A DNA stretch of 39,060 nt from Candidatus Poribacteria bacterium (GTDB lineage Bacteria > Poribacteria > WGA-4E > PCPOR2b): the NCBI GenBank assembly GCA_022567695.1, contig JADFGN010000005.1, positions 1 to 39,060 of the forward strand. The letters run 5' to 3'. The notes beneath the pieces were generated by a model that had not been told where the DNA came from, did no database searches, and saw only the letters and a program-made list of their open reading frames with translations. Each line of letters starts with the position of its first letter. The first letter of the stretch is position 1. Both the position numbers and the translations under genes were made by a program. Of the stretch, positions 15,399 through 19,002 are shown piece after piece.

Positions 15399-15456
15399 GT
15401 TAAAAAGTGCCTAGAGTGCCTAGAGTTGGCAATTTGCGCGAGGATATTGCTCCCAC

Positions 15457-15481
15457 CCGAAGGGCATCCCCGTCCCTTCGG
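15457..15481. repeat. Perfect 8-bp inverted repeat, CCGAAGGG-N9-CCCTTCGG
   Basis: Read directly: cccgaagggcatccccgtcccttcgg. Confidence 0.85.
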
Positions 15482-15705
15482 CAGACTTAGGGCAAGCTCT
15501 AAAGGGCGAGGTTATCTTGCGGGGATTCTATAATTTCGGACTACGTAACGCGCAAACTTACTGAAACCTCTTTCTTCCACTTTGCTGATTCATCCAACTG
15601 GCTGGCTAATCTCAAAAAAGACTTGCAGCATTTATAGGTTGTCCTGTAAAATTAAAAACGTCAAAGTCAAGTTACCTTCCAAATTTAATCTTCATCTGAG
15701 TTCTT

Positions 15706-15710
15706 AGGAG
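15706..15710 (+). promoter_or_regulatory. Shine-Dalgarno AGGAG for the SelW-like ORF
   Basis: ttcttAGGAGaataagcgATG, 8-nt spacing. Confidence 0.7.
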
Positions 15711-15718
15711 AATAAGCG

Positions 15719-15937
15719 ATGGAACTGCAAATTGAGTATTGCTCTTCTTGAAACTATAAGCCCAGAGCCGCCAGTGTGGCGGACCAACTGAACGAAAAAT
15801 ATAACACCGAAGTTAAGCTTGTAGCTGGTAGTGGCGGATGCTTTGAAGTCACTTTTGACGGTAAATTGATCTATTCCAAACTGGAAACGGGTCAATTCCC
15901 GGCGATCGGCCAGATTACCAGTGCTATTGACGGATGA
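15719..15937 (+). CDS. SelW/Rdx-family selenoprotein, in-frame UGA (15749..15751) predicted as selenocysteine
   Basis: Manual translation MELQIEYCSS(U)NYKPRAASVADQLNEKYNTEVKLVAGSGGCFEVTFDGKLIYSKLETGQFPAIGQITSAIDG*. Rdx-fold features: IEYCxxU near the N-terminus, V.L..G.gG.FEV..dGkLI.SK...G.FP. Terminates with tandem TGA TAA. Confidence 0.87.
15768..15782 (+). promoter_or_regulatory. SECIS-like hairpin (CCGCCA-GUG-UGGCGG)
   Basis: Perfect 6-bp stem starting 16 nt after the in-frame UGA, G-containing apical loop about 22 nt after the UGA, the position expected for a bacterial SECIS. Confidence 0.65.
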
Positions 15938-16160
15938 TAAAAGCGAGCAGAAGGTTGGGCGTAAGCAGTGATGTTTGCGCCCAGCCATACGCTTGAGTAC
16001 CCAGATTCAGAATCCTACTGCAATTCGTTTCACATTGCGATTTTTCGAGTGCTCCAACCATTTCCCGCCCAGAGCAAACCTTTCGCCTATCCGTACCTTT
16101 GTTCCCCTTTCCACTCTTATCCCGCTCTCTATCGCCACTCGTCCATCCGTTCAGGTGGTC

Positions 16161-16310
16161 GCGCAAACTGACAGTTTGCGTTACAAGCGTAATCTACGGT
16201 TTGGGTGGGCGTAGCGCAATCTGTTAGATGCGCGAGGTTCGCGAGGTTCTTCCTCCCACCCGAAGGGTCTGCCCTCCCATCCGAAGGATTGCGTTGTCCT
16301 TCATTCGTTT
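16161..16310. repeat. Cluster of intergenic palindromes (REP-like)
   Basis: CGCAAACT-GAC-AGTTTGCG (16162..16180), GCGCAATCTGTTAGATGCGC just downstream, then CTCCCACCCGAAGGG / CTCCCATCCGAAGGA repeats resembling the sequence at 15434..15480. Confidence 0.6.
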
Positions 16311-16374
16311 TCATCACCTGAACAGTTACCCTTATCCCACCCACTCTCATCGTTTGTTGAGCATGTCTTGCTTT

Positions 16375-19002
16375 CTATTTGCCCGACTTCTTTTTCCCAT
16401 CCGTTCCCCTTAAATTGGTCACAGCAGTTAGATACTCATCATAGGTGATTGCACCAATCAACAGATCTACTAGATAAGCCTTAATCTGTTGTTCTTCTTT
16501 GGATAACGTATCTGGATCTGTTTTCAACAGATTTGAGGCATAAAGTGCCTCTCTCGGATCGAGAATCACCCGAAAGACTGTATCTTCCATGTCAATCTGA
16601 CTGACGATAGGCATTGTTGCAGTCAGCTTATCATTTAAAAGATGAGATCGCGGTTCCTGAAAAGCATTCCAAGTTTTCCTGACGTAGCTTGCCACATGAA
16701 TGGGAACATATAGCGCAAGTTCGGAAAAGGTCACCGCTCGATCGCCGGAGGTATCAGCCGCTCCCTCTAACCCCTTGATTAGAAAGTGCATGAATGCGCT
16801 GATCTTCTCGCCTTGCCGCCCATAAGGTTGTTGGGTGGGTGCAACAGAAAATAGAACGGAAGTCCGTTCTGTATTTTGAAACCCTCGATAATACTTTGGT
16901 GGAAGTGTATGGGGAATCGGTTTTCCATCTTTATCAATATGCATCCCGGCAAAACCCACGTCAAGAATCATCAGCACCACTTTGGCAGGAATTTGCTGAA
17001 GCTGCCGCTCAAGTTCGTCGGCACTAATCGCTGTCCGACTCAGATATGTGAGATTCGCATTCTGAGGAAGAAGATATGAAGTTAATGATTTCCCGGTCTC
17101 TTCAAAAGCACCGTTTCCCACAAAGTGAAATAAGACGAGATCTTCGCGTCTCGCCCGAGTTGAAAGTTCCACTAAGGCTTCCATGATATTTTGATCCGTG
17201 GGCTTTTTCTCTGTTTCACTCGTCAGCTTGATAACCCGGTCCGGATGGTATTTGCCTCCGCTGTCGCTAACGAGGAACGCCTCTAGCGCGTTTGCATCTG
17301 GAATAGCGGTATCCTGGGTTTTTAGAAAGATGCCATTCGACTGTTTTTCAATCTCATACTTTCCGACAGCAACAATTAAAGCCCACTTAACTCCGCGCTC
17401 AAACACTATCTCTGGTTCAAGCGTACCCGCTGATGGGACAGGAGGCGGTGCTTTCTTTTTTACAGTCAACATTGTAATCTGCTCATTACCAACGAGATCG
17501 ACAGCGTAAAGCTCGACCTCGCGCTCGTCACCAGCAATTGAGACAGTTTGCTGAATCATAAATGTCTCTCCGCTGAGAGAAACGGGGATCAGATCACTTT
17601 CTTCCGGAGGCATCAGCAAAATGGCAACGGCATCGAATGTGACCTCCTCCAAACCGATATTGTCAGAAACAAGCAATTTGAGGTTAACCGACTTGACGTC
17701 ATTTTCGACAAAGACAACAATCTCATTCTCCGATGATGTGACTTCAGCGGCTGGGTCGATGAGTTCAAACCAAGGCGGAGTTAGATCATCAGCGGGTGGG
17801 GATATCCACAGAATAATTCTTCCATCCGATATTCCTAATGCCCATAAGTTTTCATTTCCACTTCCTATGCCAAGTTCTAATGCGCCAACTGAGTTTTTAT
17901 TTGTTGAGAAGAGGGTTAGGCTATCCTCAGTTTGCATGTCCCAGATTTTTACGGTTGAGTAGGCTTTGGAAAAAAAGTAGCGATCGTCGAGTGTGAATTT
18001 GACACTCTGAACATTACTCATATGTCCCTTGAAAGTTCTCATCAATTTTTCCGTAATTAGATTCCATAGCATGATTGTCCCATTGTTGGTGCCCGCAACG
18101 AGAAATCTGCCATTGTCACTTATGGAAATTGATTCGATTTTTTGATTCGGGACCGTAAAAGTGCGTAACAGTTCTCCCGTCTCAACATCCCAGATTTTGA
18201 TTGTACCGTCCCAAGAACTTGAAGCAATTTTTGTTCCATCAGGTGTAAAAGAAACAGAAGTCACATTACGTTTGTGCCCTTTTAAGGCAAGCCACTCTAT
18301 ACCGGATGTAACGTTCCACAGACGAACAGTGCGATCCCAAGACGCATAAGCTAGGATATGCGAATCGGGATGGAACTCAAGATCGTTAATCCACCCACTG
18401 CGTCCTCGGATAACATATTTCAATCGTCCGGTTTGGGCATTCCATAACCGAATTTCCCCATCATGTGACGCTGAAGCAATCGTCCGATTGTCCCAACTTA
18501 CGGCAATGGCAGTAATTAAATTATTGTGTTTGGCGAGCGTTCGCATTTTCTTAAACGTACCCGCATCCCACACTTTAATAGTGCCATCGCGTGCGCCTGA
18601 AACAAAATAAGCACCGCCGGGGCTGAATGCAATGGCACTCACTTTTTCGGCGTGTGCTTGAATTTCCTTTATATTATCGCTCGAAATGGCGGGGAACTGA
18701 GCAATGGCAACCTGTGCCTGTACGATGAAGCAGAGAACAAGTGAGCAAATGAGAAGGTGAGGAAATGGAGAAATGGAGCCGGGAAAATATTTCCCACGTA
18801 GCGTGTGGAAACGAGCTATGATATGTGAGAAGGGAAAAAAAGGAGGTGTCAGAAGAGATTGAAGATTTGCGGTGCTTCGACCATTGAAGATTGAAGATTT
18901 GCGGCGCTTCGACCATTGAAGATTAACCCCACGAACCCTTAGGGTGGTGGGAAGAACCCAGCGCATGAATTCGGGGGCTTGTTTTTCTTCTGTCACTTTC
19001 AT
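16375..19002 (-). CDS. WD40-repeat protein with C-terminal caspase-like (peptidase C14) domain lacking catalytic His/Cys
   Basis: WD40 units (VSAIAFSPGGAYFVSGARDGTIKVWDAG, VTSVSFTPDGTKIASSSWDGTIKIWDVETG); C14-like KWALIVAVGKYE...DANALEAFL...REDLVLFHFVGNG...AKVVLMILDVGFAG. Secretion-signal-like LLICSLVLCFIVQAQVAIA suggests the true start lies downstream of the ORF start. Confidence 0.87.
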   Translation of the reverse strand: MKVTEEKQAPEFMRWVLPTTLRVRGVNLQWSKRRKSSIFNGRSTANLQSLLTPPFFPFSHIIARFHTLRGKYFPGSISPFPHLLICSLVLCFIVQAQVAIAQFPAISSDNIKEIQAHAEKVSAIAFSPGGAYFVSGARDGTIKVWDAGTFKKMRTLAKHNNLITAIAVSWDNRTIASASHDGEIRLWNAQTGRLKYVIRGRSGWINDLEFHPDSHILAYASWDRTVRLWNVTSGIEWLALKGHKRNVTSVSFTPDGTKIASSSWDGTIKIWDVETGELLRTFTVPNQKIESISISDNGRFLVAGTNNGTIMLWNLITEKLMRTFKGHMSNVQSVKFTLDDRYFFSKAYSTVKIWDMQTEDSLTLFSTNKNSVGALELGIGSGNENLWALGISDGRIILWISPPADDLTPPWFELIDPAAEVTSSENEIVVFVENDVKSVNLKLLVSDNIGLEEVTFDAVAILLMPPEESDLIPVSLSGETFMIQQTVSIAGDEREVELYAVDLVGNEQITMLTVKKKAPPPVPSAGTLEPEIVFERGVKWALIVAVGKYEIEKQSNGIFLKTQDTAIPDANALEAFLVSDSGGKYHPDRVIKLTSETEKKPTDQNIMEALVELSTRARREDLVLFHFVGNGAFEETGKSLTSYLLPQNANLTYLSRTAISADELERQLQQIPAKVVLMILDVGFAGMHIDKDGKPIPHTLPPKYYRGFQNTERTSVLFSVAPTQQPYGRQGEKISAFMHFLIKGLEGAADTSGDRAVTFSELALYVPIHVASYVRKTWNAFQEPRSHLLNDKLTATMPIVSQIDMEDTVFRVILDPREALYASNLLKTDPDTLSKEEQQIKAYLVDLLIGAITYDEYLTAVTNLRGTDGKKKSGK
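18857..18924. repeat. Two tandem copies of a 32-bp unit
   Basis: gattgaagatttgcgg(t/c)gcttcgaccattgaa x2 with a single mismatch, plus a partial third gatt. Confidence 0.9.

Follow-up and report, generated by a model that had tools for sequence, protein, structure and literature searches.

In-frame TGA in a short reading frame of Candidatus Poribacteria

The locus raises the question of whether a TGA triplet in the eleventh codon of a short reading frame is a selenocysteine (Sec) codon of a functional gene or a stop codon within a broken one. The window, i.e., the whole 39,060-nucleotide stretch of DNA that was analysed, is one contig (C110) of a 7.3-Mb Candidatus Poribacteria assembly, which is 91% complete with an estimated contamination of 6.7%. 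With the TGA at 15749..15751 read as Sec, positions 15719..15937 of the plus strand encode a 72-residue SelW-like protein whose residue 11 is Sec, and the frame ends in a TGA stop (15935-15937) directly followed by TAA (tandem stop, 15935-15940). The TGA, which is conserved in the orthologues, is the last codon of a CxxU redox motif (TGC TCT TCT TGA, 15740..15751, plus strand). A Shine-Dalgarno-like AGGAG (15706..15710, plus strand) lies 8 nt 5' of the ATG, and AGGAG-type sites at similar spacing were found in most orthologues. These elements agree in every position with the original prediction, which was made from the sequence alone. On the evidence assembled below, the locus is almost certainly a working gene, in which UGA is read as Sec and which provides this bacterium with a SelW-like selenoprotein of the Rdx family.

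The prediction had also proposed a promoter, TTGCAG-N18-TAAAAT. Its letters are present at 15623-15652, but the -35 element has only three of the six consensus bases, and a consensus promoter scan of 15400-16400 returned no promoter, this one included. The proposed promoter is not supported beyond chance. A terminator scan gave a single terminator-like site (16283), no more than expected by chance, and an Rfam scan of 15400-16300 gave no match above the gathering score. UGA decoding in bacteria depends on the selenium supply, and the peptide upstream of the UGA has only 10 residues. Sec decoding could thus act mainly as a selenium-sensing switch, with termination after 10 residues prevailing unless selenium is plentiful. 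We consider this very improbable, as the selW locus shows no sign of regulation, and we retain the reading of a gene whose full-length product is the selenoprotein.

Rdx family membership and predicted fold

For the profile searches the TGA was read as Cys. The window protein matched Pfam Rdx (PF10262) over residues 3-70 with E = 2.6e-21 (76 bits, cut-off 22.6), NCBIfam NF041051 (SelT/SelW/SelH family (seleno)protein; 93.8 bits, cut-off 88) and TIGR02174 (66.6 bits, cut-off 34.2). The family similarity anticipated by the original prediction therefore lies on both sides of the UGA and continues through the end of the reading frame. An Rdx search of the whole genome revealed the window selW as the sole locus (E = 6.9e-18), and among named organisms the protein has its closest relatives in Candidatus Poribacteria.

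The AlphaFold2 model of the protein (pLDDT 94.8, pTM 0.81) has the predicted order strand-helix-strand-strand-strand-helix and places the CxxU motif where the first strand ends. A PDB structure search using the model revealed bacterial SelW/Rdx chains as all of the best 21 matches (TM about 0.9), followed by MIEN1 and mouse SelW; thioredoxins ranked later. A PDB sequence search returned the same families. The modelled fold is shared with the bacterial Rdx structures 2fa8, 2obk, 2oka, 2p0g, 2ojl and 3dex (TM about 0.9 to most of them) and with mouse SelW (2npb, TM 0.72), and the solved Rdx/SelW structures have about 24-35% sequence identity with the window protein. We are confident in the prediction of a SelW-like, thioredoxin-like fold. 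The window protein lacks three residues found in close relatives, in the gap between helix 1 and strand 2 (window 15812-15826).

Conservation of the TGA and selection beyond it

In a phylum-wide search, 79 of 86 Candidatus Poribacteria genomes had an Rdx match, and in 79/79 the match contained one TGA and no more. An alignment of 48 sequences, the window among them, covered nine families of the phylum, and the TGA fell in one column, the second redox position of CxxU, in all 48. Two patterns were used to scan 85,462 species genomes. One of them demanded a Cys codon at the UGA position, so that UGA was not favoured. Among its best 80 matches, 77 were scored and 77/77 had TGA at the CxxU column; two of the three unscored matches were UxxU copies, which are described below. 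No Cys form was found among these nearest relatives (the 77 scored of the best 80 matches). The alignment at the Cys/Sec column for which the original prediction had called thus revealed TGA in every orthologue examined, which excludes a sequencing error.

Past the UGA, pairs of related sequences gave dN/dS ratios of 0.04-0.15, and comparisons of the window with its unsaturated relatives gave 0.15-0.31, as estimated by a simple counting method that is saturated for distant pairs. Judged by these ratios, the region beyond the UGA is under purifying selection. The locus could instead be an Rdx gene of the CxxC type that is broken or was misread, with TGA in place of TGC or TGT, since TGA is one base away from either and an in-frame stop is typical of pseudogenes. 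However, the same TGA stands in 48/48 sequences from nine families, in assemblies made by many groups, and selection continues past it. The conservation of the TGA in orthologues refutes this explanation, and the chance that it is nevertheless correct is negligible.

SECIS-type hairpin 3' of the UGA

A bacterial SECIS-type hairpin was found at 15768..15782 on the plus strand, with the stem CCGCC/GGCGG and the apical loop AGUGU (15773-15777), in which G is the second base. The distance from the UGA to the loop is 21 nt. If numbering starts with the U of the UGA as 1, the stem is formed by positions 20-24 and 30-34, which enclose a loop of five bases, the second of them G. Among 23 distinct sequences, standard pairs made up 93.9% of the cells, 10 cells carried changes on both sides, and a covariation score of 0.315 was obtained. 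None of 500 shuffles matched these pairing and covariation values, and the signal was lost when the partner was slid by 1-3 columns. Shuffles can be inflated by related sequences, which gives weight to the codon evidence. Across the hairpin, three successive codons are nearly frozen among synonymous choices (GCC 38/38, AGT 46/46 and TTG 42/43), unlike most other selW codons, which vary. The single-sequence fold gave z = -2.7. The invariant pairs and the loop provide no covariation evidence, and their conservation could partly reflect amino-acid constraint. By this comparative sequence evidence, a conserved SECIS-type hairpin with compensatory changes is present 3' of the UGA. The window gene thus carries the hairpin expected of bacterial selenoprotein genes, just 3' of the UGA and with a G in its small apical loop.

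Selenium machinery in the genome and the phylum

The original prediction had asked for selA, selB, selC and selD in the genome. The genes for tRNA-Sec, SelB and SelD were found, and selA was represented by a C-terminal fragment at a contig edge alone. All of them lie on contigs other than the window, in an assembly whose estimated contamination is 6.7%. The tRNA-Sec gene (selC, C238:3118-3207) scored 76.1 bits (gathering score 47) and has the anticodon UCA. It adjoins selB (C238:1160-3052, 367 bits), whose product has the SelB winged-helix domains. The SelA fragment, covering profile positions 417-452 of 455, lies 1 kb before selB, and other SelA matches in the genome were far below the cut-off. 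Because the fragment sits at the very start of C238, selA was probably cut by the contig end. The selD gene (C43:10271-11041, 339 bits) reaches the contig end and itself has an in-frame TGA (...TVECAGU...). None of the findings that would speak against a selenoprotein, namely missing Sec machinery, a Cys or Trp codon in place of the TGA, or missing Rdx similarity, was made.

Genome-wide reassignment of UGA, e.g., to Trp or Gly, would also produce an open frame in an ordinary gene, but UGA ends the selW frame itself with TAA immediately after it, serves as an ordinary stop in other window genes, and occurs here at the catalytic Cys/Sec site in a genome with Sec machinery. Normal stop usage and the Sec machinery refute reassignment, which the original prediction had rightly held unlikely and which we regard as having virtually no chance of being true.

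Across the phylum, SelW, SelB and SelD were all absent from two genomes of one family, G003 (76% complete) and G004 (95% complete), and from G010 (61% complete). Four genomes had SelW with no SelB match, and their completeness is just 80-81%. The co-occurrence fits a selenium-dependent gene lost along with its machinery, in few events. Genome G018 (95% complete) has SelB and a Sec-type SelD, and SelW was not found in it; its genus mates have SelW. SelD has one in-frame TGA in 77/77 phylum genomes with a match, and is a second phylum-wide selenoprotein. A partial second SelB match (positions 1-269) was observed at G054:C50:157864-158679, at a distance of about 2.5 kb from the complete selB gene, possibly a fragment or duplicate.

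Proposed function and genomic neighbourhood

From these features we infer how the SelW-like selenoprotein gene might be expressed. Ribosomes would begin at the ATG at 15719, and SelB bound to the hairpin just 3' of the UGA would bring Sec-tRNA-Sec to residue 11, with SelD supplying the selenium and SelA loading it. Sec readthrough at this residue would yield a 72-residue CxxU protein rather than a 10-residue stub. The product is predicted to fold as a small thioredoxin-like domain with a Cys8/Sec11 pair ending the first strand, and is most likely a thiol/selenol oxidoreductase that acts on a partner. The neighbourhood of selW, in the window and the 18 relatives examined, contained no gene pointing to such a partner. 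The genes flanking the window selW on both sides are on the opposite strand. The lpxI gene is near selW in 6 of the 18 relatives; in the window it is one gene further away, past a WD40 protein gene. An ABC-transporter ATPase gene adjoins selW in three members of family f7. A search of viral contigs revealed no relative.

Comparison with known SelW-like selenoproteins

CxxU SelW-like selenoproteins are already known in bacteria, and the window gene adds another member. Those described (PMC1088965, PMC1794560, PMC2398784, PMC9312934) share with the window gene and its product the Rdx domain (PF10262), the CxxU motif and a bacterial SECIS after the UGA with a G in the small apical loop; 427 SelW-like proteins are given for the GOS data in one of the reports (PMC2398784). 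The mechanism of bacterial Sec insertion is established (PMC1794560), and by analogy would apply to the window gene. In Campylobacter jejuni, UGA readthrough in selW (CJnc60) was proven by ribosome profiling (Ribo-seq) and proteomics (PMC11955535). The C. jejuni protein, from a different phylum, has 80 residues versus 72 in the window protein.

In a sponge metagenome study, SelA and SelB were enriched in symbiont bins of several phyla and occurred together in most symbiont bins (PMC5649159). The literature searched contained no description of selenoproteins of Poribacteria, which does not prove that none exists. Two of the proteins served by the Sec machinery in Poribacteria are SelW and SelD, and the window gene links this group to the use of selenium. 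Genes of this kind are truncated or overlooked by standard gene callers, so annotation can easily lose a protein present in 79/86 Poribacteria genomes. As regards selenoproteins at large, these genes represent more members and no new principle.

Putative double-selenocysteine branch of the SelW family

Among the matches was a Verrucomicrobiales metagenome-assembled genome with TGA at both SelW redox positions (L143, L144), and selB was found in this genome. A search of the order and the family revealed such UxxU SelW orthologues (L143, L144, L172-L177, L181, L192-L198 and L201), mostly UGMU and otherwise UGQU, UGVU or USKU; they come from 14 genomes, all belonging to one Verrucomicrobiales-related family. 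Twelve of these genomes carry copies with at least 57% identity to the query (UGMU, UGQU and UGVU), and two copies are more distant (L181, UGMU; L201, USKU). The two UGAs are 9 nt apart, with a single SECIS-type hairpin 3' of the second. That the double UGA recurs in 14 genomes speaks against a sequencing error. In the papers found, UxxU is listed for Prx-like families only (PMC2398784, PMC9312934). Judging from these sequences, the SelW family probably includes a double-selenocysteine branch, in which an internal diselenide could form. Unlike this branch, the window gene has the ordinary CxxU form, which also occurs in other members of the UxxU-bearing family.
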